Made by a program: the position numbers and the translations under genes. Of a DNA stretch of 64,000 nucleotides, positions 3,866 to 41,555 are shown piece after piece. The DNA is from Cupriavidus neocaledonicus (GTDB lineage Bacteria; Pseudomonadota; Gammaproteobacteria; Burkholderiales; Burkholderiaceae): positions 39,435-103,434 of the forward strand of contig NZ_AQUR01000105.1 in NCBI RefSeq assembly GCF_000372525.1, read 5' to 3'. Each line of letters opens with the position of its first letter. Position 1 is the stretch's first letter. Under the pieces are notes generated by a model. That model saw only the letters and a list, made by a program, of their open reading frames with translations. It had not been told where the DNA came from and made no database searches.

Positions 3866-6210
<2,345 letters not shown>

Positions 6211-6490: not shown

Positions 6491-7045
6491 ATGCGTTCTA
6501 CCGCCACTGCCCCCGCCGGCTACGGTGCCACCGCGATCGCCCTGCACTGGCTGGTGGCGCTGGCCATATTCGCCGCGTTCGGGCTGGGTCTGTACATGAC
6601 CGGCATTCCGGGGCTGACGCCGACCAAGCTCAAGTTGTACTCCTGGCACAAGTGGCTGGGCGTGACGATCTTCGCCATCGCCGTGCTGCGCGTGCTGTGG
6701 CGCGCCACCCACGCCGCGCCGCCGGTCGCGCCCGGCACCCCGGCGTGGCAGGCCAGGGCGGCGGCGGGGGCCCATCACCTGCTTTACCTGCTGATCCTGG
6801 TCGTGCCGATCAGCGGCTACCTGTACAGCTCGGCCGCGGGCGTTCCGGTGGTCTACCTGGGCCTGTGGAAGATGCCGGCGCTGATCGAGAAAAGCGATGC
6901 GCTGAAGGACGTGCTGAAGTTCACCCATATCTGGCTGAACTACCTGATGGCCGCGGTGGTCGTTGTCCATGCGGCGGCGGCGCTGAAACACCAGTTTGTC
7001 GACCGTGACGGCACGCTCGGCCGGATGCTGCCGTTCCTGCGCTGA
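6491..7045 (+). CDS. Cytochrome b561 (YodB/CybB family)
   Basis: 184 residues with four hydrophobic helices (about residues 14-36, 50-66, 92-112 and 145-167). Histidines are placed for two b-type hemes (ALHWL, WHKWLG, HHLLYL, FTHIWLN). The family consists of inner-membrane di-heme cytochromes that exchange electrons with quinones. It is followed by two YceI genes, a common pairing in proteobacteria. The ribosome site GAGAGGAA lies just before the ATG. Confidence 0.92.
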   Translation: MRSTATAPAGYGATAIALHWLVALAIFAAFGLGLYMTGIPGLTPTKLKLYSWHKWLGVTIFAIAVLRVLWRATHAAPPVAPGTPAWQARAAAGAHHLLYLLILVVPISGYLYSSAAGVPVVYLGLWKMPALIEKSDALKDVLKFTHIWLNYLMAAVVVVHAAAALKHQFVDRDGTLGRMLPFLR

Positions 7046-7111
7046 GCCTGGCGCGCCAATCTTTTTCGTACCGCGGCGCCGCTGCGCCGTCCCTGACAGG
7101 AGTTTTCCCAG

Positions 7112-7693
7112 ATGAAACCCAATTCCCGCCGCGGCTCGGCCACTCTCCGCGCCACGCTGGCCGCCGTGCTGGCCGCCACCGGCATCGCCGCCAACCTGGC
7201 CTGGGCCCAGGTCGACGCCGCCAAGAGCTCGGTCACCGCGGTGGCGCGCCAGATCGGCGTGCCGATGGAGGGCAAGTTCAAGAAGTTCGACGCCAACGTC
7301 AGCTTCGACCCCGCCAAGCTGGCGACGTCGACGGCCAAGATCGAGATCGACGTGGCCAGCTTCGAGATCGGCGACGCCGAGACCACCAAGGAAGTGAAGG
7401 GCAAGGACTGGTTCGACGCCGCCAGATACCCCAAGGCGGTATTCCAGTCGACCAGCATCAAGAACGGCACGCCGGGCAAGTACGACGTGGCCGGCAAGCT
7501 GACCATCAAGGGCAAGACCGTGGACGTGGTGGTGCCCGCCACCTACCGCCAGGAGGGCGGCGCGCAGGTATTCGAAGGCGCGCTGCCGATCAAGCGCACC
7601 GCCTTCAATATCGGCGACGGCGAATGGAAGGACACCTCCGTGGTCGCCGACGACGTCCAGATCAAATTCCGTATCGTGCTGGCAAAGAAGTAA
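7112..7693 (+). CDS. YceI family periplasmic protein (copy 1)
   Basis: 193 residues. A cleavable signal peptide is likely (positively charged MKPNSRRGS, hydrophobic core, cleavage after AWA near residue 32). The rest is a YceI-type lipocalin-like beta-barrel (FKKFDANVSFDPAKLATSTA, then GKDWFDAARYPKAVFQS). Family members bind isoprenoids or other lipids in the periplasm. The gene lies 66 bp after cytochrome b561 and 74 bp before a second YceI gene, suggesting one operon acting on quinone-like lipids, which is an inference. AGGAG precedes the ATG. Confidence 0.9.
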   Translation: MKPNSRRGSATLRATLAAVLAATGIAANLAWAQVDAAKSSVTAVARQIGVPMEGKFKKFDANVSFDPAKLATSTAKIEIDVASFEIGDAETTKEVKGKDWFDAARYPKAVFQSTSIKNGTPGKYDVAGKLTIKGKTVDVVVPATYRQEGGAQVFEGALPIKRTAFNIGDGEWKDTSVVADDVQIKFRIVLAKK

Positions 7694-7767
7694 GGCCGGC
7701 ATTCCGCTGACGTACCCAGGACTTACCTGAACCGCTCCATCCCAACCCTGATTTGTCGGGAGACACT

Positions 7768-8358
7768 ATGAAACTGCGTTCCCTCGTTGCCGCCGTCGCG
7801 GCCGTTTCCGCAACCGCCGCCTTCGGCGTGGCTTCGGCCAACACCGTGACGTACAACCTCGATCCGACCCATACCTATCCCAGCTTCGAGGCCGACCACC
7901 TGGGCGGCCTGTCGACCTGGCGCGGCAAGTTCGACAAGTCCAGCGGCGTGGTAACGCTGGACCGGGCCGCCAAGGCGGGCTCGGTCGAGGTCAAGATCGA
8001 CCCGGCTTCGATCGATTTCGGCAACGCCAAGCTGAACCAGCACGCCAAGGGCCCGGACATGTTCGATGTCGAAGCCTTCCCCGAGGCCACCTACAAGGGC
8101 AAGTTCTCCAAGTTCAAGGGCGACGTGCCGACCGAGGTCGACGGCGTGCTGACGCTGCGCGGCGTGTCCAAGCCGGTCAAGCTCGAAATCCGCGACTTCA
8201 AGTGCATCCAGCACCCGATGCTCAAGCGCGAAGCCTGCGGCGCCGATGCCGTCGGCCAGTTCAACCGGGCCGATTTCGGCCTGGACTATGGCGTCAAGAT
8301 GGGCTTCAAGCCCGAGGTCAAGCTCGCCATCCAGGTGGAAGGCGTGCGCGCAGACTGA
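7768..8358 (+). CDS. YceI family periplasmic protein (copy 2)
   Basis: 196 residues. The signal peptide [20 protein letters not shown] ends near Ala24. The mature part opens [20 protein letters not shown], the characteristic YceI start. It is more canonical than copy 1 and probably the better candidate for an isoprenoid-binding lipocalin. A GGGAG ribosome site precedes the ATG; an in-frame TTG at 7753 is less likely. A terminator follows the gene. Confidence 0.93.
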
Positions 8359-8392: not shown

Positions 8393-8420
8393 AAGGCCGG
8401 CCCATGCCGGCCTTTTTTTG
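8393..8420 (+). terminator. Rho-independent terminator after the second YceI gene
   Basis: AAGGCCGGC, a short loop and GCCGGCC are followed by seven T residues. It ends the cytochrome b561-yceI-yceI unit. Confidence 0.9.
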
Positions 8421-8708: not shown

Positions 8709-10100
8709 GTGTACTCCAAAACGCAAATCGATCCGGTAGTTAGTTTCCGCAACTCGCAGGGCGAGCAGGTGCGGGGCACCATCATCAATCTCCAGAGGAA
8801 ATCTCTGGTGATGGAAATCTACAACCCGTATTCGATCGTGCAGGTCAGCGAGGTGCTGAGCGAGCTCAGCGTCCGCATGGGCGCCAAGAATGCCTATCTC
8901 GGCAAGGCCGTGGTGATGAGCCTGGTGAATACCGGCCTGACCGCGGTGGTGTCGCTGACGCTGATCGACGAGTGGCGCGAGCTGTCCGATCTCAACAACG
9001 AGCCCAAGTCGGTCGCGCGCGAAGCCGAGCTGTTCGTGCAGGATTGGGACACGCGCTTCAACATCCGGCGCGACTACCAGATCGTGGTCAACGAGATGCG
9101 CGCCTTCCTCTCCGAAGTGTCGCGCTGGGTCGAACAGGTCGACCTGACCGAGTCGCTGCCCAAGACCGAAGGCAAGCTGCGCCAGGACGTCTTCTACGAG
9201 CTGGCGACGCCGATCATGGCCAAGACCAAGACCTACCTGGACTGGCTCGAGGGCGAGGCCCAGCGCGTGGATGCCGAAGTCGCCCCGGTGCACCGCACCT
9301 ACGCGCAGTCGGCGCTGCACCCGTTGCTGCTGCGCGCGCCGTTCGTCTACCGCACTTTCACCAAGCCGCTCGGCTATGCCGGCGACTACGAAATGGTGAA
9401 CCAGATCCTGGGCGATCCCCAGCAAGGGCCGACCACCTATTTCCAGATCGTCAATACCGCCTTCCTGAAGGCGGCGGTGGCCACCGCGCACCGCAACCGC
9501 ATCGACCTGCTGATCGATTTCCTCAAGCGCCAGGCCGAGCGCGCGCGCGCCGCCGGGCGGCCGTTCCGCGTGCTCAACGTGGGTTGCGGCCCGGCCTTCG
9601 AAATCCAGCGCTTCGTGCGCGAATACCCGAACCCCGAGCTGCTGTCGTTCCAGTTGGTCGATTTCAGCGAAGAGACGCTGGAATACACGCACAAGTCGAT
9701 CGAGCGCTCGGCCAGCAGCGCCGGCAACAAGTTCGCCGTCGAGATGGTGCACCAGTCGGTGCACGAGCTGCTCAAGCGGCGCATCTCGCCGGACGATGCC
9801 GCCGCGCGCGAGTTCGACGCGGTCTATTGCGCCGGCCTGTTCGACTACCTCTCGGACAAGGTCTGCGCGCGGCTGCTGTCGTACTTCGCCTCGCGCTCGC
9901 GCCCCGGCGGCCAGATCCTGGTGACCAACGTCCATGCCGACAATCCGGAGAAATTCGGCATGGAGCACCTGCTCGAGTGGTACCTGATCTATCGCGACGA
10001 TGCGGGCATGGCGCAACTGCTGCCCGAACACTCGCATTCGCACCGCGTCTACGTCGACAGCACCGGGGTCAACGTATTCGCCGAAGCCACCATTGACTGA
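8709..10100 (+). CDS. phcB: PhcB-like SAM-dependent methyltransferase, signal synthase
   Basis: 463 residues from a GTG start. The N-terminal 90 residues resemble a PilZ-like barrel. The C-terminal half is a class I methyltransferase with the SAM-binding loop VLNVGCGPAFEIQ at about residues 288-300 and an acidic motif-II residue in LVDFSEETLEYT. In Ralstonia solanacearum PhcB makes the 3-hydroxy fatty-acid methyl-ester quorum signal. The assignment rests on this fold plus the three downstream genes, which match phcS, phcR and phcQ in order. The exact acyl chain made here cannot be read from sequence. phcS starts 22 bp after its stop. Confidence 0.88.
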   Translation: MYSKTQIDPVVSFRNSQGEQVRGTIINLQRKSLVMEIYNPYSIVQVSEVLSELSVRMGAKNAYLGKAVVMSLVNTGLTAVVSLTLIDEWRELSDLNNEPKSVAREAELFVQDWDTRFNIRRDYQIVVNEMRAFLSEVSRWVEQVDLTESLPKTEGKLRQDVFYELATPIMAKTKTYLDWLEGEAQRVDAEVAPVHRTYAQSALHPLLLRAPFVYRTFTKPLGYAGDYEMVNQILGDPQQGPTTYFQIVNTAFLKAAVATAHRNRIDLLIDFLKRQAERARAAGRPFRVLNVGCGPAFEIQRFVREYPNPELLSFQLVDFSEETLEYTHKSIERSASSAGNKFAVEMVHQSVHELLKRRISPDDAAAREFDAVYCAGLFDYLSDKVCARLLSYFASRSRPGGQILVTNVHADNPEKFGMEHLLEWYLIYRDDAGMAQLLPEHSHSHRVYVDSTGVNVFAEATID

Positions 10101-10122
10101 GGCTGTCCTCGCGGGTCACGCC

Positions 10123-11454
10123 ATGAGCACCAACCAACTCTACGCCGGCTACCAGTCCGAACTGGTCGACTTCCGCCTGGCCTTCAGCCGCGGCGGCGCC
10201 TATACCGCGATCGTGCTGGTCCTGCTCGGCGTCGGGCTCGACTACGGACAGTATCCGCAGCAGCAGTTTCCCTTTGCGGTCGCACGCGTGGTGGTGTCGA
10301 TGCTGATCGCCGGGGTCGTGGTGGTGCTGTACAGCGCCGCCGGCCGCCGCTTCGCGCCCTGGCTGACGCTGACCTGGCTGCTGTTGCCGCAGATCATGAT
10401 CGCCTGGATGATCTCGCAGACCGAAGGGGTGCATTCGCCGTACTACGTCGGGCTGAACCTGGCCATCTTCGCATCCGGCATCGCGCTGCCGTTCGGGCTG
10501 TGGCAGAACCTGGTGTTCGGCGTGCTTTCCTACCTGCTGTATGTGCTCGCCTGCCTGTTCCACCCCGGCGGCATCGAACCGTTCGGCACCTTTATCGTCA
10601 ATTCGCTGTTCCTGTTGTTTGCCGCCGCTGCCAGCGCCGTCTACACCTATTTCAACGAGCGCGCGCGCTTTATGCTGTTCCGCCTGAAGGCGGAGGTGGC
10701 CGAGAAGAACGCCGAACTCGAGGTCATCAATCGCAAGCTGGTCGACATCAAGGGCCAGATGCTGCAGCAGGAAAAAATGGCGGCGATCGGTACGTTGGCC
10801 GCGGGTCTGTTGCATGAGGTCAACAATCCGGTGAACTTCTGCCTGATGGCGATCGAGGTCGCGATGGAAGAACCCCAGGCCAAGGAAAGCGAGTCGCTGA
10901 CCGAATGCCTGGTAGATGCGAAACAGGGGATGCAGCGCATCCAGCATATCGTCTCGGACCTGAAGACCTTCGCCTACCGCAAGCCGGGCGCTGAGGTGGA
11001 AGGCACGCCGTTCATGTTCGAAAAGGCGCTGGATTCCTCGATCCGCCTGACCGCGCATGAGCTGCGCGGCGTCAAGGTCACGCGCGAGTTGCCTGCGGAT
11101 ACGCTGGTGCTGGGCGACGAGGCCGCCATCATCGGCGTGCTGATCAACCTGTTTTCGAACGCGGCGCTGGCCATGCGCAAGGCCGGCACGACCGAGCCCG
11201 CGATCCATACCACCGTGCACTGGGCCGAAGGCCGATTGCACGTGACCGTGCGCGACAACGGGCCCGGCATCGCGCCGGAGCATCTGGCGCGGGTGTTCGA
11301 GCCGTTCTTCACCACCCGTGAAGTCGGGCAGGGCCTGGGCCTGGGGCTGTCGATCAGCTATGCCGTGATCGAGCGCCACGGAGGCCAGCTGTTTGCCGAA
11401 AGCGAGCTCGGCCAGTGGGCTGCGTTCAGCTTCGACCTGCCTCGCGCGGAGTAA
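10123..11454 (+). CDS. phcS: PhcS-like membrane sensor histidine kinase
   Basis: 443 residues. About six transmembrane helices fill residues 25-178, with almost no periplasmic domain, which suits a lipophilic signal. A coiled linker follows, then a HisKA-type motif GLLHEVNNPVNF with phospho-acceptor His231, and a HATPase domain with the N box (NLFSNAALAM), G1 (DNGPGIAP) and G2 (GQGLGLGLSIS). In R. solanacearum PhcS senses the PhcB product. It sits between phcB and phcR, five bases before the latter. Confidence 0.9.
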   Translation: MSTNQLYAGYQSELVDFRLAFSRGGAYTAIVLVLLGVGLDYGQYPQQQFPFAVARVVVSMLIAGVVVVLYSAAGRRFAPWLTLTWLLLPQIMIAWMISQTEGVHSPYYVGLNLAIFASGIALPFGLWQNLVFGVLSYLLYVLACLFHPGGIEPFGTFIVNSLFLLFAAAASAVYTYFNERARFMLFRLKAEVAEKNAELEVINRKLVDIKGQMLQQEKMAAIGTLAAGLLHEVNNPVNFCLMAIEVAMEEPQAKESESLTECLVDAKQGMQRIQHIVSDLKTFAYRKPGAEVEGTPFMFEKALDSSIRLTAHELRGVKVTRELPADTLVLGDEAAIIGVLINLFSNAALAMRKAGTTEPAIHTTVHWAEGRLHVTVRDNGPGIAPEHLARVFEPFFTTREVGQGLGLGLSISYAVIERHGGQLFAESELGQWAAFSFDLPRAE

Positions 11455-11459
11455 GTCGC

Positions 11460-12596
11460 ATGAGCGAACTCCAGCAAGCCCGGCCCAATGTCGTCCTCTA
11501 TGTCGACGACGAAGACATGGCGCGCAAGTACTTTGCGCGCGCGGTCGGCAGCGAGTATGAGGTCCTGCTTGCCGCCGGCGCCGACGAGGCGATGGCGACG
11601 CTGCGCGCCGAGGGCGGGCGGATCACGATCCTGGTCACTGATTTCCGCATGCCAGGCCGCGATGGCGGCGATCTGCTGCGCGAAGTCGCCCAGGCCTATC
11701 CGCAGATCGTGCGCATCCTGGTGACGGCCTACGCCGACAAGGACATGCTGTTGCAAACCGTCAACAGCGGCGAAGTCTTCCGCATCCTCGAAAAGCCCCT
11801 GAGTGTCGGCGACGTGCGCAAGGTGCTGCACCTTGCCGGCGAGCGCCACCTGGAGCGCGCGTTGCGCCAGCATCGCCTGATGGCGATCGATGAAACCCTG
11901 GCCTTCCTGGCGCATGAACTGAACACGCCGCTGGCCGCCATTGCCAACTTCGCGCGGGGCATCGAAAGCCGCGTCCAGGCCGAGTACAGCGAGCAGCGGC
12001 AAGGAGAAATCGGGCAGGCCGCGGGCGCCATGTACGACAACGCCCAGTATTGCCTGGCGGTGCTGTCGTCGTTCCTCGAGTCGGTGCGCAACAGCGCCGC
12101 CAGCAAGGCGCCGGCGGCCGACGCCGGCACCGAGGTCAGCGCGGGCGCGCTGGTGGCGGGGCTGCTGGATACCTATCCGTTCGCAGGCGGGCAGCGCCAG
12201 TGGGTCGACGTCGACATGCAGGGCGACTTCCCGGTGCAGACGCTGCCCAACTGCGTCGCGCTGGTACTGTCGTCGGTGATGAGCAACGCGCTGCGCGCGC
12301 TCGCGGGCGTGGACCGGCCCTCGCTGCGCTTCGTGGTGACAACCCAGCCCAACCAGGAAATCCGCATCTGCGACAACGGCCCCGGCATCCCGCCAGAGGT
12401 GATGGGGCGGCTGCTGGTCGATCCGGTCACTACCCACGCCAGCGCTGGCGGCAGTGGCCTCGGCATGATTTTCTGCAACCGCGTCATGCAGTCCTTCGGC
12501 GGCGGCATCCGGATCGCCTCCGCTCCCGGTGCCGGGACCACAGTGACGCTGGACTTTCCAAATTTCAGGAATCGAATGATTAGGAGTGACCGATGA
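11460..12596 (+). CDS. phcR: PhcR-like response regulator fused to a histidine kinase domain
   Basis: 378 residues. The N-terminal receiver has YVDDED at residues 14-19, phospho-acceptor Asp61 in VTDFRMPG, and Lys112 in EKPLS. It is joined to a histidine kinase core with His152 in FLAHELNTPLAAI and an ATPase domain (CDNGPGIPP, GGSGLGMIFC). Such receiver-kinase hybrids act as intermediate phosphorelay steps. In R. solanacearum PhcR links PhcS to control of the LysR regulator PhcA. Its last bases overlap the start of phcQ (ATGA). Confidence 0.9.
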   Translation: MSELQQARPNVVLYVDDEDMARKYFARAVGSEYEVLLAAGADEAMATLRAEGGRITILVTDFRMPGRDGGDLLREVAQAYPQIVRILVTAYADKDMLLQTVNSGEVFRILEKPLSVGDVRKVLHLAGERHLERALRQHRLMAIDETLAFLAHELNTPLAAIANFARGIESRVQAEYSEQRQGEIGQAAGAMYDNAQYCLAVLSSFLESVRNSAASKAPAADAGTEVSAGALVAGLLDTYPFAGGQRQWVDVDMQGDFPVQTLPNCVALVLSSVMSNALRALAGVDRPSLRFVVTTQPNQEIRICDNGPGIPPEVMGRLLVDPVTTHASAGGSGLGMIFCNRVMQSFGGGIRIASAPGAGTTVTLDFPNFRNRMIRSDR

Positions 12597-13600
12597 GCGA
12601 ACCGATTGCCACCCAGGCACCACCCCCGGCGATTCTGTTCGTCGATGACGAGGCGACCGCCGTCAAATATTTCCAGCGGGCCATCGGCGCGCTGGCGCCG
12701 GTGGTGACTGGCGGCTCGGTGGAGGAGGGCAAGACGCTGCTGGACGCTCACGCCGACAGCCTGGCCGTGCTGGTCTCGGACCAGCGCATGCCGGGCGAGT
12801 ACGGCAACGAACTGCTGCGCTATGCGCGCGAGCGCTACCCGCACATCGTGCGCATCCTGACCACCGCGTACTCGGAACTCGACCAGACCGTCGAGGCGGT
12901 GAACCAGGGGCAGATCCATCGCTATATCAAGAAGCCGTGGGATATCACCGCGCTGCGCATGGAGCTCAAGCAGGCGCTGGAAATGTCCGGCCTGCGCAAG
13001 GAGCGTGACCAGCTGGTGCGCGAGAAGCTGGCGGTGCTGCAGACCCAGACCGTGGCTACCCGCATCGGCATGCTGCACGCGCTGTGCGCAAGCCTGATTG
13101 GTCCGGGCCATTTCCAGCCGGTGGAGACTTACCTGGCGGCGGTCGACCTGGCGGGGGCCCGCAACGCCGATCCGGACTGGCAGCGCATGGACTACGCCGA
13201 CCTGGTTCGCGCCGAAGCCGAGCGCAGCGGCAGCTTTGGCCATGCAGTGGGCACATGCCTGGCCGGGCTGCGCAGCGCCAATGCGGGCAAGGGCGCTGCC
13301 GATGCCGCCGCCGTGATCGCCGACGCGCTCGGCAGCGAGGTGGTGCGCCGCGACGGCGATACGGTGGTCTGGACCCAGCCGGCCGCGCTGGCCGAGTTCC
13401 TGGCCCAGCCCGTGGGCACGGCGGTGTCGGCGCAGCATGCGGCCTGGCTGGCCAGCCTGCTGTGGCTCGAAGAGGCCGGCGGCGCGCTGAAGTTCGTGCG
13501 CGACGGCGACACCATTGTCTGCCGCGCTGCCCCGCGCAGCGACAGCTTCGCCTCCGACCGGCTGGCGGCATGGATCGAGCGCTTCTCGATGCCGGCCTGA
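12593..13600 (+). CDS. phcQ: PhcQ-like response regulator
   Basis: 335 residues. The receiver domain occupies residues 13-130, with FVDDE at 16-20, phospho-acceptor Asp63 in VSDQRMPG, and Lys110 in IKKPWD. It is followed by a helical linker and a C-terminal region of about 190 residues with no recognisable DNA-binding motif. In R. solanacearum PhcQ is the main response regulator controlling quorum-dependent genes. The four-base overlap with phcR indicates translational coupling. It is the last gene of the operon and is followed by a strong terminator shared with secF. Confidence 0.87.
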   Translation: MSEPIATQAPPPAILFVDDEATAVKYFQRAIGALAPVVTGGSVEEGKTLLDAHADSLAVLVSDQRMPGEYGNELLRYARERYPHIVRILTTAYSELDQTVEAVNQGQIHRYIKKPWDITALRMELKQALEMSGLRKERDQLVREKLAVLQTQTVATRIGMLHALCASLIGPGHFQPVETYLAAVDLAGARNADPDWQRMDYADLVRAEAERSGSFGHAVGTCLAGLRSANAGKGAADAAAVIADALGSEVVRRDGDTVVWTQPAALAEFLAQPVGTAVSAQHAAWLASLLWLEEAGGALKFVRDGDTIVCRAAPRSDSFASDRLAAWIERFSMPA

Positions 13601-13645: not shown

Positions 13646-13676
13646 AACGGCGCCCCGCGGGGCGCCGTTCTGTTTT
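13646..13676. terminator. Bidirectional terminator between phcQ and secF
   Basis: The perfect palindrome AACGGCGCCCCG/CGGGGCGCCGTT is flanked by CTGTTTT on the right and by GAAAAA on the left (TTTTTC on the other strand). It can therefore stop transcription from phcQ and from the convergent secF. Confidence 0.9.
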
Positions 13677-13691: not shown

Positions 13692-14663
13692 TCAGGCCTG
13701 CGCGCCGTAGTTGGGGTCGTTGCGGTCGGTCGACTCGCCCTTCTTCTCGCCCTTGACCAGGTCCTCGCGCTTCACGCCGAGCCACATCGCCAGCGCCGCG
13801 GCGACGAACACCGACGAGTAGATGCCGAACAGGATGCCCACCGTCAGCGCCAGCGCGAAGTAGTGCAGCGTCGGGCCGCCGAAGAAGAACATCGACAGCA
13901 CCATCATTTCGGTCGAGCCGTGGGTGATGATGGTCCGCGACATGGTGCTGGTGATGGCATGGTCGATGACCTCGTGGGTGGTCATCTTGCGGTACTTGCG
14001 GAAGGCTTCGCGGATCCGGTCGAAGATCACCACCGACTCGTTCACCGAGTAGCCCAGCACCGCCAGGATCGCCGCCAGCACCGACAGCGAGAATTCCCAC
14101 TGGAAGAAGGCGAAGAAGCCCAGGATGATGACGATGTCGTGCAGGTTGGCGATGATGCCCGCCACCGCGAACTTCCACTCGAAGCGGAACGACAGGTAGA
14201 TCACGATGCCCGCCACCACGCACAGCAGCGCCAGCAGGCCGTCGGTGGCGAGCTCCTTGCCCACCTGCGGGCCGACGAACTCGACGCGCTGCAGCTTGAC
14301 GTCAGGCGAGGCCGCGGTGAGCGCGCCCATCACCTGCTCGCTCTGCTGGGCCGAGGTCGCGGGCTTGCCGTCCGGGCCCTTTTGCAGCGGCAGGCGGATC
14401 ATCACGTCGCGCGAGGTGCCGAAATTCTGCACCTGCACGTCGGTGTAGCCGAGCTTGCCCACCTGGCCGCGGATCTTTTCCAGGTCGGCCGCCTGCTGGT
14501 AGCTGACCTCCATCACCGTGCCGCCGGTGAATTCGATCGACAGGTGCAGGCCCTTTTGCCAGAGGAAGAACACGGCCGCGGCAAACGTCAGGAAGGAGAT
14601 CACGTTGAAGATCAACGCGTGCTTCATGAACGGAATGTCGCGCCGGATGCGGAAGAATTCCAT
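13692..14663 (-). CDS. secF: Protein translocase subunit SecF
   Basis: 323 residues with six predicted membrane helices and a large periplasmic loop after helix 1. The family motif IEFTGGTVMEVSYQ is present near residue 45, and the conserved GYSVNESVVIFDRIRE motif is near residue 220. SecF works with SecD to drive the late stages of protein export. It is the last gene of the queA-tgt-yajC-secD-secF order, 41 bp after secD. Confidence 0.96.
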   Translation of the reverse strand: MEFFRIRRDIPFMKHALIFNVISFLTFAAAVFFLWQKGLHLSIEFTGGTVMEVSYQQAADLEKIRGQVGKLGYTDVQVQNFGTSRDVMIRLPLQKGPDGKPATSAQQSEQVMGALTAASPDVKLQRVEFVGPQVGKELATDGLLALLCVVAGIVIYLSFRFEWKFAVAGIIANLHDIVIILGFFAFFQWEFSLSVLAAILAVLGYSVNESVVIFDRIREAFRKYRKMTTHEVIDHAITSTMSRTIITHGSTEMMVLSMFFFGGPTLHYFALALTVGILFGIYSSVFVAAALAMWLGVKREDLVKGEKKGESTDRNDPNYGAQA

Positions 14664-14704
14664 GTTGAATCCTGTTCTGTACTACGTGTTGTGCCGCGGG
14701 CCGC

Positions 14705-16576
14705 TTACTTGGCGACCGGCGTGTCGGTGGTATTGCCCGGCTTCCAGATCTGGCCGATGGCCACGCTCTGCAGCTTCTTCTTGCGGCCGTACCAGAGATT
14801 GACCAGGCCGCGGTTGAAGAACACCGCCGAGAACATCGAGGTCAGGATGCCCAGGCAGTGCACCACGGCAAAGCCGCGCACCGGGCCCGAACCGAACGCC
14901 AGCAGCGCCAGGCCGGCGATCAGCGTGGTCACGTTGGAGTCCAGGATGGTGGCCCAGGCGCGGTCGAAACCGACCGCGATCGCCACCTGCGGCGACGCGC
15001 CGGCGCGCAGTTCCTCGCGGATGCGCTCGTTGATCAGCACGTTGGCGTCGATGGCCATGCCCAGCACCAGCGCGATGGCGGCGATGCCAGGCAGCGTCAG
15101 CGTGGCCTGCAGCATCGACAGCACCGCGATCAGCAGCAGCAGGTTCACGCCCAGCGCGATCACCGAGAACACGCCGAACAGCATGTAATACAGGATCATG
15201 AACACGCCGATGGCGGCAAAGCCATAGGCAACCGAATCGAAGCCCTTCTCGATGTTCTCCGCACCCAGCGACGGGCCGATGGTGCGCTCTTCGATGATCT
15301 CCATCGGCGCGGCCAGCGAGCCGGCGCGCAGCAGCAGGGCCAGGTCGTTGGCGGCTTCGGTGGAGTAGGAGCCGGTGATCTGGAAGCTCGAGCCCAGTTC
15401 GGACTGGATCGTCGCCACCGTCAGCACTTCGCCCTTGCCCTTCTCGAACAGCACGATCGCCATCGGCTTCTTCAGGTTCTCGCGCGAGACATCGCGCAGC
15501 ACGCGGCCGCCCTGTGCGTCGAGCTTGATGTTGACCGAAGGCTGCTGGTTCTGGTCGAAGCCGGCCGAGGCGCTTTCGATGCGGTCGCCGGTGAAGATGA
15601 CCTGCTTCTTCAGCACCACCGGGGCGCCGTTGCCCTGCGTGAACAGTTCGCTGCCAAACGGGATCGGGTCGCCCGGGCGCGGGCTGCGCGGCGCGTCGTT
15701 GTCGACCAGGCGCGCTTCCAGCGTGGCGGTGCGGCCGATGATGTCCTTGGCCTTGGCGGTGTCCTGCACGCCCGGCAGCTGCACCACGATGCGGTCGGCG
15801 CCTTGCTGCTGGATCACCGGCTCGGCCACGCCGAGCTCGTTGACGCGGTTGTGCAGGGTGGTGATGTTCTGCTTGACCGCGGCGTCCTGCACGGCGCGGC
15901 GGGCGGCCTCGGTGAAGGTGCCGACGATGTTGTTGCCGTCCATGGCGAAGGCCACTTCGCGCACGTTGTCGGTCAGCAGCGCGCGCGCGCGGCCGGCGTC
16001 GTCGGCGTTGTTGAAGCGCACCGTCAGGCGCTCGCCGTCGCGGTCGATGCCGCCGTGGCGGATGTTCTTGTCGCGCAGCAGCGTGCGCGCGTCGCCGGCC
16101 AGGCTGTCGAGCTTCTTGTCGACCGCGCCCTTCATGTCGACCTGCAGCAGGAAGTGCACGCCGCCGCGCAGGTCCAGGCCCAGGTACATCGGCAGCGCGT
16201 GCAGCGAAGTCAGCCAGCGCGGCGAGCCCGAAAGCAGGTTGAGCGCGACCACGTAGGCGGGATCGGACGCGTCCGGGTTCAGCGTGCGCGACAGCACGTC
16301 CTTGGCCTTGAGCTGCTCGTCAGTGGTGCGGAAGCGCGCCTTGACCGAGCCCGACTGGCCGGAAATATCGAAGAAGACGCCGTCTGGCTGCAGCTGGTTC
16401 TGCGCCAGGATCTCTTCGACCTGCTTCTGCATCGACAGGTCGACCTTGACCGTGGCCTTGCCCGAGGACACCTGCACGGCAGGCGCCTCGCCGAAGAAGT
16501 TCGGCAAGGTGTAGATGATGCCGATGGCCAGGGCCACCAGGATCACGAGGTATTTCCAAAGCGGATAACGATTCAT
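14705..16576 (-). CDS. secD: Protein translocase subunit SecD
   Basis: 623 residues. One N-terminal helix (MNRYPLWKYLVILVALAIGI) precedes a long periplasmic region containing GLDLRGGVHFLLQV. Five C-terminal helices include the conserved VLGMAIDANVLINERIREE motif. SecD is the proton-driven export accessory subunit. Its length is normal for betaproteobacteria. It lies 210 bp after yajC; that gap contains GC-rich inverted repeats but no gene that I can support. Confidence 0.96.
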   Translation of the reverse strand: MNRYPLWKYLVILVALAIGIIYTLPNFFGEAPAVQVSSGKATVKVDLSMQKQVEEILAQNQLQPDGVFFDISGQSGSVKARFRTTDEQLKAKDVLSRTLNPDASDPAYVVALNLLSGSPRWLTSLHALPMYLGLDLRGGVHFLLQVDMKGAVDKKLDSLAGDARTLLRDKNIRHGGIDRDGERLTVRFNNADDAGRARALLTDNVREVAFAMDGNNIVGTFTEAARRAVQDAAVKQNITTLHNRVNELGVAEPVIQQQGADRIVVQLPGVQDTAKAKDIIGRTATLEARLVDNDAPRSPRPGDPIPFGSELFTQGNGAPVVLKKQVIFTGDRIESASAGFDQNQQPSVNIKLDAQGGRVLRDVSRENLKKPMAIVLFEKGKGEVLTVATIQSELGSSFQITGSYSTEAANDLALLLRAGSLAAPMEIIEERTIGPSLGAENIEKGFDSVAYGFAAIGVFMILYYMLFGVFSVIALGVNLLLLIAVLSMLQATLTLPGIAAIALVLGMAIDANVLINERIREELRAGASPQVAIAVGFDRAWATILDSNVTTLIAGLALLAFGSGPVRGFAVVHCLGILTSMFSAVFFNRGLVNLWYGRKKKLQSVAIGQIWKPGNTTDTPVAK

Positions 16577-16785
16577 CTCGGGCCAGTCATTCAGCGGTTG
16601 GCGGGGCCGGCGCAGGCGAGGCGCGCCACGTCGGCGGCGCCGAACCGGTTTGGCAAACAGCCGCCTGGCAGCCGCGGAGCGAAGCCGCGGGGGCTTCGTC
16701 GGGCTGGATCAGGCGGCTGCCGGGGCATGCGCGAACGGGCATGCCGGAAAAGACAAAGGCGGGAGTCGCGCGCGCGATCCGGGGA

Positions 16786-17112
16786 TCAGAGCGCCTTCAG
16801 CGAGCCCTTGGGCAGCACCGTGGTCACGGCATTCTTCTGCACCGTGATCTCGGTGCCTTCGGCGACTTCCAGGCTGACGTACTGGTCGGTGACCTTGGTC
16901 ACGCGGCCCAGGATGCCGCCGGCGGTAACGACTTCGTCGTTCTTGGCCAGCGCTTCGAGCATTGCCTTGGCTTCCTTCTGGCGCTTCATCTGCGGGCGGA
17001 TCATGATGAACCACAGCACACCAAACATCAGGATGATGGGCAGGAAGCTCATCAGGCCGCCAGCCGCGCCGCCGGCACCGGCGGTCTGGGCAAATGCGTT
17101 AGAAATCAGCAC
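16786..17112 (-). CDS. yajC: Preprotein translocase accessory subunit YajC
   Basis: 108 residues. A single N-terminal membrane helix (GLMSFLPIILMFGVLWFIMI) is followed by the family segment RPQMKRQKEAKAMLEALAKN and a short Sm-like domain. YajC associates with SecDF. It stands between tgt (189 bp upstream) and secD on the same strand, the usual arrangement. Confidence 0.95.
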   Translation of the reverse strand: MLISNAFAQTAGAGGAAGGLMSFLPIILMFGVLWFIMIRPQMKRQKEAKAMLEALAKNDEVVTAGGILGRVTKVTDQYVSLEVAEGTEITVQKNAVTTVLPKGSLKAL

Positions 17113-17300
17113 GTTGATTCTCCGTCACAAAAGTCAGTCAATTAATCGAACATTCTACCATTCGCACCTGGCCCGCCCTTGGCATTCTAGGGCGGAATAC
17201 GGGTTTGTTCGGGTGCGTTGGGGACAACTTGCGCGGTGGCTGCCGCGCCTCGACCGGCTATTCGACCGCGGGCGGCGGGAAAGTTCGCGCCGCCGGCTTG

Positions 17301-19518
<2,218 letters not shown>

Positions 19519-19595
19519 CGTGGGAAGGGCGGGCTGCGCGGTCTGCGGGCGGTGGAGCATGGCGCATCACTGCGCTGCCCGGGTTGGCAGCCGGC

Positions 19596-36860: not shown

Positions 36861-38384
36861 TCAGAAGCGCGGCAACTCGGGATGCGGCAGCAGGCCCTTC
36901 TTCACGTGCATCTTGCCGTATTCGGCACAGCGCGCCAGCGTCGGGATGGCCTTGTCGGGGTTGAGCAGCCGCGCCGGGTCGAAGGCGGCCTTGACGCCGA
37001 AGAAGGCGTCGCGCTCCGCGGTCGAAAACTGCACGCACATGGAGTTGAGCTTTTCCACGCCGACGCCGTGCTCGCCGGTGACGGTGCCGCCCAGCTCGAC
37101 GCAGGTTTCAAGGATGTCGGCGCCGAACAGCTCGGCGCGGTGCCATTCGTCCTGGTCGCCGCCGTCGAACAGCACCAGCGGGTGCATGTTGCCGTCGCCG
37201 GCATGGAACACGTTGATGCAGCGCAGGCCATACTTCGCTTCCATGGCCTCGATGCGCTTGAGCAGCGTGCCAATGTGCTTGCGCGGGATGGTGCCGTCCA
37301 TGCAGTAATAGTCCGGCGAGATCCGCCCTGCCGCGGGGAAGGCGTTCTTGCGGCCGCTCCAGAAGCGCAGCCGCTCGGCCTCGTTCTGCGAGACCACGAT
37401 GCGGGTGCAGCCGGATGCGGTCAGCACCGCGCTCATGCGCTCGATCTCCTCGGCGACTTCCTCGGGCGTGCCGTCGGACTCGCACAGCAGGATCGCGGCG
37501 GCATCGAGGTCATAGCCCGCATGCACGAATTGCTCGACCGCGGCGGTGGCGGGCTTGTCCATCATCTCCAGCCCGGCCGGGATGATGCCCGCGGCGATCA
37601 CGTCGGCGACCGCGTTGCCGCCTTTCTCGACATCGTCGAAGCAAGCCATGATCACCTGCGCCAGCTGCGGCTTGGGGATCAGGCGCACGGTGACCTCGGT
37701 GACCACCGCCAGCATGCCCTCGGAGCCGATCAGCACGGCCAGCAGGTCCAGCCCGGGCGCATCGGGCGCCTCGGAGCCGAACACCACCACCTCGCCCGAC
37801 ATCGTCACCGCGCGCACGCGCAGCACGTTGTGCACGGTCAGGCCGTACTTCAGGCAGTGCACGCCGCCCGAGTTCTCGCTGACATTGCCGCCGATGGTGC
37901 AGGCGATCTGCGACGACGGGTCGGGCGCGTAGTACAGGTTGTGCGGCGCGGCGGCGTCCGAGATCGCCAGGTTGCGCACGCCCGGCTGGACCACCGCGGT
38001 GCGCGCATACGGATCGACCGACAGGATGCGCTTGAACTTCGCCAGCGACAGCACCAGGCCCTCGGCGATCGGCATGGCGCCGCCAGACAGGCTGGTGCCG
38101 GCGCCGCGCGGCACCACCGGCACGCCCAGCTGGTGGCACAGCCGCAAGATGGCGCAGACCTGCTCCTCGGTGTCGGGCAGCGCCACCGCCATCGGCACCT
38201 GGCGGTATGCAGCCAGGCCGTCGCACTCATAGGGCACGGTGTCTTCCGGCTTCCACAGCACCGCGGCGTCGGGCAGGATCTGCGCCAGGCCGGCCAGCAG
38301 TGCGTCGCGGCGGCCGTCGGCCGTGGCCTGGGCCGGGGCATCGCCGGCGGCGGCGAGGGTTTGGGCTTCGTGCGGGGCATTCAT
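36861..38384 (-). CDS. glcD: Glycolate oxidase FAD-linked subunit GlcD
   Basis: 507 residues. FAD-binding PCMH domain (VVPRGAGTSLSGGAMP, GGNVSENSGGVHCLKYG) and the C-terminal flavin-oxidase domain with HAGDGNMHP and TGEHGVGVEKL. GlcD oxidises glycolate to glyoxylate with GlcE and GlcF. The ATG at 38384 (MNAPHEAQTL) is preferred over a longer frame upstream. It is the first gene of the glcD-channel-glcE-glcF run. In autotrophic Cupriavidus this enzyme is known to serve phosphoglycolate salvage. Confidence 0.95.
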   Translation of the reverse strand: MNAPHEAQTLAAAGDAPAQATADGRRDALLAGLAQILPDAAVLWKPEDTVPYECDGLAAYRQVPMAVALPDTEEQVCAILRLCHQLGVPVVPRGAGTSLSGGAMPIAEGLVLSLAKFKRILSVDPYARTAVVQPGVRNLAISDAAAPHNLYYAPDPSSQIACTIGGNVSENSGGVHCLKYGLTVHNVLRVRAVTMSGEVVVFGSEAPDAPGLDLLAVLIGSEGMLAVVTEVTVRLIPKPQLAQVIMACFDDVEKGGNAVADVIAAGIIPAGLEMMDKPATAAVEQFVHAGYDLDAAAILLCESDGTPEEVAEEIERMSAVLTASGCTRIVVSQNEAERLRFWSGRKNAFPAAGRISPDYYCMDGTIPRKHIGTLLKRIEAMEAKYGLRCINVFHAGDGNMHPLVLFDGGDQDEWHRAELFGADILETCVELGGTVTGEHGVGVEKLNSMCVQFSTAERDAFFGVKAAFDPARLLNPDKAIPTLARCAEYGKMHVKKGLLPHPELPRF

Positions 38385-38656
38385 GAGCGACTCCTGTGGG
38401 GTCCTCCTGGACGGCGGCCTGTGGCATTCGCTTGCCGGCCTGCCGGCCGCGGCGGTGCAGTGCCGGCCGCGGGGGGACGGCTGACTATAGCGCAGGCCAC
38501 CTGGCGCGGGCACCACGGCGGACGTGAATTCGGCATGCCGGGCCGATCAAAAATGCTCATCATGCCGGGCGGGCACGGGCGCCGGTTTCAGCGTAGCACC
38601 GGCGGCCGGCCAGCGGTAAGGCGGGGCAGGGTCCAGAGATCCGGCCGCGCTGCGTG
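38385..38656. other. Intergenic region upstream of glcD
   Basis: 272 GC-rich bases. TATAGT on the - strand (38489-38484) is a possible -10 box for glcD, without a good -35 box. CATGCCGGGC occurs twice (near 38534 and 38564). No gene is supported. Confidence 0.35.
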
Positions 38657-39209: not shown

Positions 39210-40100
39210 CTACCAGTCCAGGCTCAGCAGCCAGTCGACGAAATAGCGCGCCTCGGGCTTGAGCGGCGCCTGCTCACGCTCGACGATGTAGTAGCCGTGC
39301 GGCGATACCGATTCCACATCGAGCAGCCGCACCATCTGGCCCAGCGACAGCCAGTGCCGCGCCATGCGCTGGCGCACCAGCGCCACGCCCTGGTTCGAGG
39401 CGATCGCCTCAAGCATCAGGCCAATGTCGTTGAACTGCGGGCCGGTCTGGGGCTCGGGCCAGTCCAGCCCGGCGGTCTCGAACCACGGCTTCCACGGCTC
39501 CAGCGGGCTGCGCAGCAGCACCAGCCCGTGCAGGTGCTCGGGCCGGGTGATGGCGCGGCCGTTGACGCGCTCGTAGTACTCGCGCCCGCACGCCGGGAAC
39601 ACCGGCTCCACCAGCAGTTTTGTGGTCTTCAGGTCGGGGTAGCGGCCGGTGCCGTAGCGGATCTCGACATCGGTGTCCTCGGCCTTGACGTCGAGGAACG
39701 GGATCGCCAGGTGCAGCTCGAGGTCGATATGCGGATAGAGCGCGCCGAACTCCGGCAGCCGCGGCACCAGGTGCTGGCGTCCGAAGGTGGGCGGGATCGC
39801 CACGCGCAGCCGCGTGCGCATCTTGTTGTACTCGGGCCGGGCCAGCTCGTTGAGCGACTTGAGCGCGTCCTGCACGTTGCGCAGGTAGCGCGTGCCGGCG
39901 GCGGTCAGCCGCAGCGCGGCATTGGCGCGCACGAACAGGTCTTCGCCCCACAGCTCCTCGAGGTTCTTGATGCGGTGCGAGACCGCGCTGGGCGTCACCG
40001 ACAGCTCCTCGGCCGCGCGCGCAAAGCTGCCCAGGCGCGCCGCCGCCTCGAAGGCGATCAGCAGGTGCAGTGGCGGCACGCGGTTGAACATGGAGGCCAT
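39210..40100 (-). CDS. LysR-type regulator (GcvA-like)
   Basis: 296 residues. An N-terminal winged helix (LHLLIAFEAAARLGSFARAA, SVTPSAVSHRIKNLEE) of the GcvA/AmpR subgroup and a LysR effector domain. It lies 24 bp downstream of the D-lactate-dehydrogenase-type gene in the same direction, not divergent from it, which is atypical for LysR pairs. It may control that gene or act elsewhere. Confidence 0.9.
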   Translation of the reverse strand: MASMFNRVPPLHLLIAFEAAARLGSFARAAEELSVTPSAVSHRIKNLEELWGEDLFVRANAALRLTAAGTRYLRNVQDALKSLNELARPEYNKMRTRLRVAIPPTFGRQHLVPRLPEFGALYPHIDLELHLAIPFLDVKAEDTDVEIRYGTGRYPDLKTTKLLVEPVFPACGREYYERVNGRAITRPEHLHGLVLLRSPLEPWKPWFETAGLDWPEPQTGPQFNDIGLMLEAIASNQGVALVRQRMARHWLSLGQMVRLLDVESVSPHGYYIVEREQAPLKPEARYFVDWLLSLDW

Positions 40101-40124: not shown

Positions 40125-41555
40125 TTACTGCGCGCCGGCGCGCGCGGCGCTGAAGATCTTGCCGGGGTTGAGGATGTGGTTGGGGTCGAGCGCATCCTTG
40201 ATCGCGCGCATCAGGTCGAGCGCGTCCTCGCCGTGCTCAGCCACCAGGAAGCGCTGCTTGTGCAGGCCCACGCCGTGCTCGCCGGTGCAGGTGCCGCCCA
40301 TCGCCAGCGCGCGCTCGACGATGCGCTGGTTGATGGCCTCGGCCTCGGCCATTTCCTCGGGCTTGTCGGGGTCGACCAGGATCGCCACGTGGAAGTTGCC
40401 GTCGCCGACGTGGCCGACGATGGGGCAAGGCAGCGCCGAGGCGTTCAGGTCCTTCTCGGTCTCGGTGACGCAGTCGGCCAGGCGCGAGATCGGCACGCAC
40501 ACGTCGGTGGTGACCGACTTGCAGCCCGGCTTGAGCTGCAGCATCGCAAAGTACGCGGTATGGCGCGCATTCCACAGCCGGCTGCGGTCTTCCGGGCGCG
40601 TGGCCCACTCGAAGCCCTGGCCGCCGCATTCGGCGGTGATCTGCTGCACGGTCTCGGCCTGCTCGCGCACGCCGGCCTCGGTGCCGTGGAACTCGAAGAA
40701 CAGGTGCGGGGTCTCGGGCAGCGTCAGGTTGTCGTGGCGGTTGATGGCGCGGATCGCCAGCGCATCGACGAATTCCACGCGCGCCACCGGCACGCCCAGC
40801 TGGATGGTCTGGATCACCGCCTGCACCGCGCTGCCCATGCTGGGGAAGGCGCATACCGCGGCGGAGATCGCCTCGGGCTGCGGGTACAGCCGCACCGTGA
40901 CCTCTGTGATGAGGCCGAGCGTACCTTCGCTGCCGATGAAGAGCCGGGTCAGGTCATAGCCCGCCGACGACTTGCGCGCCTGCGTGCCGGTGCGGATCAC
41001 GCGGCCGTCGGCGGTCACCACCGTCAGCGCCAGCACGTTCTCGCGCATGGTGCCGTAGCGCACCGCGTTGGTCCCCGACGCGCGCGTGGCGCACATGCCG
41101 CCCAGCGACGCGTCGGCGCCCGGGTCGATCGGGAAGAACAGGCCGGTGTCCTTGATCTCCTGGTTCAGTTGCTTGCGCGTGACGCCGGGCTGCACCGTCA
41201 CGGTCAGGTCCTCGGGCTGTACCGCCAGCACCCGGTTCATCTGCGACAGGTCCAGGCTGATGCCGCCGGCTACCGCCAGCAGGTGGCCTTCCAGCGACGA
41301 GCCCGCGCCATACGCAATCAGCGGCACGCCATGCTGGTTGCACAGGCGCGCCACCTCGGCCACTTCCTCGGTGCTGTGGGCAAACACCACCGCATCCGGC
41401 AGCGCCGGCGGGAACGGCGACTCGTCGCGGCCGTGGTGCTCGCGCACGCCGGCGGAAGTGGTGAAGCGCTCGCCGAAGCGCGCCGCGAGGGCGTCCGCCA
41501 TGGCGGGCGGCAGCGGACGGCGGGCGAGGGAGGCGGACGGCGTGGGGTGGTTCAT
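40125..41555 (-). CDS. FAD-linked 2-hydroxyacid dehydrogenase (D-lactate dehydrogenase type)
   Basis: 476 residues. PCMH FAD domain (IAYGAGSSLEGHLLAVAGG, GADASLGGMCATRASGTNAVRYG) and C-terminal FAD-oxidase domain (GHVGDGNFHVAI, TGEHGVGLHKQ). The motif spacing matches mitochondrial-type D-lactate dehydrogenases (DLD/LDHD) more closely than GlcD. Expected role: oxidation of D-lactate or a related D-2-hydroxyacid, passing electrons to cytochrome or quinone. It is first in an apparent operon with a LysR and a GNAT. Confidence 0.88.
   Translation of the reverse strand: MNHPTPSASLARRPLPPAMADALAARFGERFTTSAGVREHHGRDESPFPPALPDAVVFAHSTEEVAEVARLCNQHGVPLIAYGAGSSLEGHLLAVAGGISLDLSQMNRVLAVQPEDLTVTVQPGVTRKQLNQEIKDTGLFFPIDPGADASLGGMCATRASGTNAVRYGTMRENVLALTVVTADGRVIRTGTQARKSSAGYDLTRLFIGSEGTLGLITEVTVRLYPQPEAISAAVCAFPSMGSAVQAVIQTIQLGVPVARVEFVDALAIRAINRHDNLTLPETPHLFFEFHGTEAGVREQAETVQQITAECGGQGFEWATRPEDRSRLWNARHTAYFAMLQLKPGCKSVTTDVCVPISRLADCVTETEKDLNASALPCPIVGHVGDGNFHVAILVDPDKPEEMAEAEAINQRIVERALAMGGTCTGEHGVGLHKQRFLVAEHGEDALDLMRAIKDALDPNHILNPGKIFSAARAGAQ

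Follow-up and report, generated by a model that had tools for sequence, protein, structure and literature searches.

The closest described systems are the phc quorum-sensing operons of Ralstonia, in which the sequence groups of PhcB and PhcS match the type of signal, either 3-hydroxymyristic acid methyl ester (3-OH MAME) or 3-hydroxypalmitic acid methyl ester (3-OH PAME), a grouping that in R. solanacearum is independent of phylotype (review citing Kai 2015). phcB and phcS are also among the candidates for balancing selection in Ralstonia, phcB having the most windows in the phylotype I list (PMC6580516). In Cupriavidus, phcBSRQ together with phcA was reported in 2010 for C. necator JMP134 (PMC2842291) and C. 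metallidurans CH34 (PMC2864759), and both papers cite earlier functional work in the genus. CH34 has a 3-OH PAME-like activity, yet 3-OH PAME was not purified from it, and its motility is stimulated by PhcA (PMC2864759). In C. taiwanensis, phcA has been deleted; for the branch leading to this species, more change than expected has been described in phcBQRS and, with recombination filters applied, phcB and phcS have been described as under positive selection (PMC5995829). Here we analyse the phcBSRQ operon in a 64,000-nt stretch (the window; contig C105) of the 6.77-Mb genome of C. neocaledonicus, which falls within or beside C. taiwanensis/necator. The operon itself is already known in the genus and is not a new find; what looks to be new is that its signal-making and signal-sensing half occurs in at least three deeply different versions that are exchanged like a cassette. 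A search of the open-access literature by titles and the beginnings of abstracts, with subscription papers outside its scope, found no account of exchange of phc classes in Cupriavidus. The initial annotation of the window had called signal and targets poorly described outside plant pathogens; this does not hold for the system, given the 2010 papers and the phcA deletion, but holds for the signal, which is not settled.

The four genes are tightly packed on the forward strand. phcB (8709-10100, GTG start, 463 amino acids) encodes an S-adenosylmethionine-dependent methyltransferase, here of the class I allele defined below; phcS (10123-11454, 443 amino acids) encodes a sensor histidine kinase with six likely membrane helices, a dimerization and histidine phosphotransfer (DHp) domain containing H231, and an ATPase domain; phcR (11460-12596, ATG start, 378 amino acids, with a longer alternative GTG frame starting at 11415) encodes a receiver fused to a histidine kinase; and phcQ (12593-13600, 335 amino acids) encodes a receiver followed by an uncharacterised C-terminal part. 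Gaps of 22 bp and 5 bp separate phcB from phcS and phcS from phcR, and phcR and phcQ overlap by 4 bp. Pfam places a methyltransferase in PhcB (E 1e-7), HisKA and HATPase in PhcS, a receiver with HisKA and HATPase in PhcR and a receiver in PhcQ, and the phospho-acceptors are intact exactly as first annotated: H231 in PhcS, D61 and H152 in PhcR (numbered from the ATG at 11460) and D63 in PhcQ. H231 is invariant in 39 PhcS; the phospho-acceptor of PhcS in OE1-1 is H230 (PMC11960443).

Searched with Ralstonia proteins, in the direction from Ralstonia to this genome, the genome returned the window genes each time: the window phcB is the sole match of R. pseudosolanacearum PhcB (P0066, named by its source; 70%), and the best matches of R. 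pickettii PhcS, PhcR and PhcQ are the corresponding window genes (63, 58 and 56%). Window PhcB is 68-70% identical to two R. pseudosolanacearum PhcB and 98% identical to that of Cupriavidus necator SHC 2-3, and the nearest named counterpart given for window PhcS, at 98%, comes from C. taiwanensis and is labelled 'sensor histidine kinase, repressor of PhcA' by its source. The search for phcA elsewhere in the genome, which had been suggested with the initial annotation, led to a LysR-type gene that adjoins fur on a different contig from the operon (G000:C96:141828-142817); we take its product to be PhcA from this position, as in CH34, and from the general character of its sequence. It has a relative in all 60 Cupriavidus genomes, at 82-100% identity. 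phcA is next to fur in both CH34 and R. solanacearum (PMC2864759). Because gene order, domains, Ralstonia best matches and a phcA elsewhere in the genome all agree, the operon is, on sequence grounds, phcBSRQ, and the composition and order first proposed for it are borne out. yceI, phcB, phcS, phcR, phcQ and secF are each found at 80% coverage or more in 51 of the 60 genomes (the window's included), and since their order and orientation are the same in 51/51, the operon is more than a chance arrangement.

We searched 60 Cupriavidus genomes, the window genome and 59 others, and found a single phcB locus in every one; the window's own genome has one phcB only. PhcB counts leave out G045 (one stop) and G046, G058 and G042 (in pieces), which keeps 56; PhcS counts leave out G011, G058 and G042; and trees and correlations exclude genomes without an intact gene at 90% coverage (49, 48 or 47 kept). 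Identity to the window PhcB is discontinuous, being 85-100% in 46 intact proteins, 74-76% in eight and 69-70% in two, and whole-protein clustering of the 56 at 80% gives groups of 46, 6, 2 and 2. Among the 55 genomes in which both proteins are intact, residues 90-463 of PhcB and residues 1-195 of PhcS, clustered at thresholds of 0.76 and 0.70, yield the identical partition: class I, the window's, with 45 genomes, class II with 8 and class III with 2, the PhcB and PhcS classes agreeing in 55/55. Two tighter pairs of thresholds divided class II in PhcB, not in PhcS, and left membership of I, II and III unchanged; class III and class IIb are represented by two genomes each.

Between classes, the methyltransferase part of PhcB is 63-74% identical and the membrane sensor of PhcS 48-62%, whereas adjacent DNA can be 92-100% identical. 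When class I is compared with class II, identity averages 0.96 over PhcB 1-85 and 0.70 over PhcB 90-463, 0.59 over PhcS 1-195 and 0.89 over PhcS 211-443; 41 sites in PhcB share no residue between the two classes, 0 of them in 1-85, as do 39 sites in PhcS, 0 of them in 211-443. The flank genes purB, yceI, secF, secD, yajC and tgt show such classes in none of six cases. C. taiwanensis PhcS records fall into both classes, P0121 and P0122 in class I (sensor 97-98% identical to the window) and P0196, with 27 member sequences, in class II (99% to G018, 59% to the window), and PhcB and PhcS of C. metallidurans are class I-like (86%).

Classes have been swapped in place between close relatives. Comparing G057 with the window, the flanks are identical at 0.99 (mean of PurB, YceI, SecF and SecD), with PhcB at 0.746 and PhcS at 0.755. 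The clearest pair, G019 and G037, is 92-100% identical in 200-bp steps over 10.6 kb outside nine steps (4400-6199) in which identity falls to 60-87%; a two-edge likelihood scan sets the limits of this block at codon 87 of phcB and codon 202 of phcS, the nucleotide difference being 0.298 inside and 0.032 outside. Over eight cross-class pairs, the left edge fell at phcB codon 87 in four, at codon 51 in one, at codon 147 in one and upstream of phcB in one, and was unplaced in one; the right edge fell within phcS in five, at codon 202-209 in four of them and at codon 170 in the fifth, and within phcR in the other three. For G009 and G051 the best split was a conserved right block, and the left edge was taken from sliding windows. 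The commonest edges coincide with the end of the PhcB barrel and with a point 22-29 residues before PhcS H231. Transferred to the window by codon number from these genome pairs, the core of the block that is exchanged spans 8967..10749 on the forward strand, beginning at codon 87 of phcB and ending near codon 202-209 of phcS. Among ten same-class control pairs, no comparable block was seen (0/10). G018 and G049, both class II, have a mild block (0.070 against 0.022) from phcB codon 254 to past phcQ; G048 and G051, both class III, are more alike in the phcB-phcQ region (0.161) than in the rest (0.356); most other control pairs show merely upstream, end-of-phcQ or alignment-end effects.

On a tree of PurB, SecF and SecD from 49 genomes, parsimony counts 10 class changes, against a minimum of 3 and 9.7 in shuffles, and the strongly supported branches of this flank tree alone force 6 changes for class I. 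In approximately unbiased (AU) tests on 48 genomes, three host clades, namely the window's clade, G019+G037 and G009+G012+G051, are rejected by the PhcB methyltransferase part and by the PhcS sensor (p 3e-8 or less). For the flanks it is a single class II clade that is rejected (p 1.8e-6). In the PhcS kinase, G019+G037 and G009+G012+G051 stay together, yet both the window's clade (p 0.026) and a class II clade (p 0.002) are rejected, which would follow if the block in the window's clade continues beyond the kinase. Across 47 genomes, the partial correlation between distances in the PhcB methyltransferase part and the PhcS sensor, with flanks removed, is 0.978 (0 of 999 permutations as high); the same correlation with PhcQ is 0.231.

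We put at about 70% the probability that the PhcB methyltransferase part and the PhcS sensor are exchangeable signal-specificity cassettes within the Cupriavidus phc operon. By the Ralstonia model, the signal would be a 3-hydroxy fatty-acid methyl ester, made by PhcB and sensed by PhcS through its six-helix domain. PhcS would pass phosphate to PhcR and PhcQ, and these two would govern how active or how stable PhcA is, the LysR regulator whose gene lies elsewhere. The methyltransferase part and the membrane sensor would then form a single specificity cassette of at least three old classes, swapped by homologous recombination whose breakpoints, in several cases, lie where the PhcB barrel ends and shortly ahead of the DHp domain of PhcS. 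Because the PhcB and PhcS groups of Ralstonia match signal type, each class probably makes and senses a different variant of the signal.

Several observations weigh against so simple a picture. The left edge lies upstream of phcB in one pair and at codons 51 and 147 in the two others named above, and in 3/8 pairs, all from the window's clade, the block extends into phcR (to codon 300 or its end), which means that the sensor border is not the cut site in every case. Nor are the eight pairs eight independent events, since two genomes serve twice. With flanks removed, the PhcB methyltransferase part also correlates with the PhcS kinase (0.721), the PhcB N-terminus (0.539) and PhcR (0.523), and the class II clade is weakly supported in the PhcS sensor (Shimodaira–Hasegawa-like approximate likelihood ratio test (SH-aLRT) 90). 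phcB and phcS are adjacent, so their linkage alone is no proof of co-adaptation, and the classes could differ for reasons other than signal. Further, the class I signal would at least cross-react with that of Ralstonia, because the activity of CH34 resembles 3-OH PAME (PMC2864759) and C. metallidurans is class I-like.

A rival reading is an ordinary phc operon: the classes would be neutral haplotypes of long standing, shuffled by recombination that is general in Cupriavidus, the signal being unchanged throughout. Recombination is common, with 1699 of 3568 C. taiwanensis core genes giving a pairwise homoplasy index (PHI) signal (PMC5995829); neighbouring genes travel together in any case; and the difference in signal between the classes is something we infer. 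Against it, none of the six flank genes measured shows such classes, all 80 fixed differences between classes I and II fall in PhcB 86-463 and PhcS 1-210 with none in PhcB 1-85 or PhcS 211-443, and in Ralstonia it is the grouping of PhcB and PhcS only that follows signal type (review citing Kai 2015). We regard this explanation as unlikely, though as the most serious of the rivals considered.

Two further accounts were considered. The excess change in phcBQRS and the positive selection on phcB and phcS found on the C. taiwanensis branch (PMC5995829) could reflect fast selection by point mutation within lineages, as was proposed for that species. Yet the class II methyltransferase parts from different hosts cluster together (SH-aLRT 98; PhcS sensor 90), and the window PhcB is nearer to 13 named Paraburkholderia and Burkholderia loci (83-86%) than to that of G057 (75%), with which it shares flanks at 99%. 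Because class II groups across hosts and the window PhcB is nearer to other genera than to G057, exchange is needed in place of parallel mutation; the point-mutation account is already hard to hold, and we give it very little credence. Deep classes at one locus would likewise be predicted if two ancestral tandem or paralogous phcBS copies had been lost differently in each lineage, but the 60 genomes contain no second phcB locus and nowhere both classes side by side, and the edges of divergence lie inside genes, with near-identical DNA on either side in the same genomes. Differential loss is, in our estimate, the least credible of these accounts.

Outside the genus, a family search matched PhcB at E 1e-90 in 67 of 299 genomes, from 5 of 25 genera. 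In a PhcB tree of 71 rows, for which 23 of the 46 class I sequences were kept, both Cupriavidus rows of class III join seven Paraburkholderia rows (support 100). Five rows from outside the genus, four of Paraburkholderia and one of another genus, fall within class I (98), class II forms a clade of its own (100) and 16 Ralstonia rows are separate (95); each Paraburkholderia set contains one named locus, its other rows being placed by genus assignment. The identity of 83-86% between the window PhcB and the 13 named Paraburkholderia and Burkholderia loci compares with 75-76% to four named class II Cupriavidus loci. In Ralstonia, two R. pseudosolanacearum PhcB are 98.8% identical over residues 1-85 and 82.1% over 90-463; in 20-residue steps, the drop starts at about residue 141, not 87. 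We lean towards a Burkholderiales-wide pool of phc cassettes, swapped close to domain borders across strains, species and genera, Paraburkholderia included, with the barrel, kinase, PhcR, PhcQ and PhcA mostly staying in place; relatives would change over to a different hydroxy-ester signal and keep the output, and part of the 'positive selection' in C. taiwanensis would perhaps be a swap. Cassette exchange may be an alternative reading of the phc selection reported for that species (PMC5995829).

At two loci (L058:12713-13795 and L181:5755-6828), phcB and phcS are followed by phcQ and the place of phcR between them is empty. In several Paraburkholderia (L174 and others, L064), the match to PhcR covers only some third of the protein; both would fit the weak effect of phcR deletion in OE1-1 (PMC8578825).

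PhcB is modelled (mean predicted local distance difference test score (pLDDT) 80) as a six-strand beta barrel at residues 7-85, a mostly helical region at 99-282 and a Rossmann-type methyltransferase at 286-462. In the PhcS model (mean pLDDT 81, predicted template modelling score 0.48), from which the membrane helices were read off, six likely membrane helices are joined by short loops and a long helix (154-249) runs into the DHp domain, in keeping with the initial annotation of a membrane kinase with hardly any periplasmic part. The PilZ-like N-terminus suggested there for PhcB was not confirmed: no PilZ (PF07238) match was listed by Pfam among 47 PhcB at E 1, and hhalign, with shallow profiles, gave 0.2% or less for the N-terminus against five PilZ domains of this genome. 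The matches listed by Foldseek and VIA-align for PhcB are mostly named methyltransferases, and residues 1-73 are hardly covered; a search of solved structures with the PhcB profile gave no match. PDB matches of PhcS, among those listed, are mostly kinase cores. MASE8 (PF20968) is annotated in 119 of 120 PhcS relatives among the matches listed (window 10123-10750); in our own Pfam search, 5 of 39 PhcS members reached E 1 for it, and the window PhcS did not. Change of R22 in R. solanacearum lowered the signal in supernatants (PMC6989110); this residue, invariant in 47 PhcB, sits in the barrel and outside the core block. The barrel may thus have a role that does not depend on class, for instance in controlling PhcB.

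The operon lies between conserved flanks. To its left are cytochrome b561 and two YceI genes (6491..8358, forward strand; Pfam and genus comparison), and to its right, on the reverse strand, a set of species-marker genes conserved in the genus comparison (13692..19560), which we take from their protein sequences to be secF, secD, yajC, tgt and queA. secF lies within 2.5 kb of the phcQ start in 50 of the 51 genomes that have all six genes at 80% coverage or more. In the remaining 9 of 60, a gene is broken or cut or a gap is longer, but the genes present keep their order. In L137 (G035) and L152 (G046), secF is about 7 and 4 kb from phcQ in place of the usual 1 kb or so, with an insertion between. 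Terminator-like hairpins on the forward strand lie 5′ of the operon (8393..8414) and 3′ of phcQ (13646..13669), at a frequency no higher than in shuffles, and a promoter search found none.

Individual genomes show further irregularities. phcA is in two pieces in G049 and G027, and phcB is in pieces in G046, G058 and G042, which carry other cut genes as well; either the system may have been lost during culture, much as in phenotype conversion, or the splits may be noise from assembly. In G054, phcA is about 22 kb from phcB, as against separate contigs in the window genome, through rearrangement or a contig break. A LysR-type gene within the window (39210-40100), presumably GcvA-like by appearance, lies between two flavin adenine dinucleotide-linked oxidase-like genes (36861-38516 and 40125-41555); it was considered as phcA and dropped, the fur neighbour on C96 having relatives in all 60 genomes.

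Set beside known systems, this locus is like the Ralstonia phc operon in gene order, domains, phospho-acceptors and a PhcA next to fur, and unlike it in its position between YceI genes and secF and, against two signal groups in Ralstonia, in having at least three classes with block edges placed to codons. It shares operon, phcA and genus with CH34 and JMP134; the papers on these strains, in their excerpted text, treat single genomes and do not mention allele classes. In their best pair, the Cupriavidus strains are near-identical on either side of a block of about 1.8 kb, a natural matched set suited to tests of what the Cupriavidus signal is and of how fatty-acid-ester quorum sensing achieves its specificity. 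The cassettes also offer an alternative reading of a published case in which quorum sensing evolved adaptively in a plant symbiont, and would extend the signal-type polymorphism of wilt bacteria to a mostly non-pathogenic genus. Pherotype cassettes, among them Staphylococcus agr and Streptococcus comCD, likewise have a signal maker and a sensor domain that co-vary and are exchanged while the kinase core stays. Those systems use peptide signals and are not homologous to phc, in which a methyltransferase would be the signal maker and a fatty-acid ester the signal.

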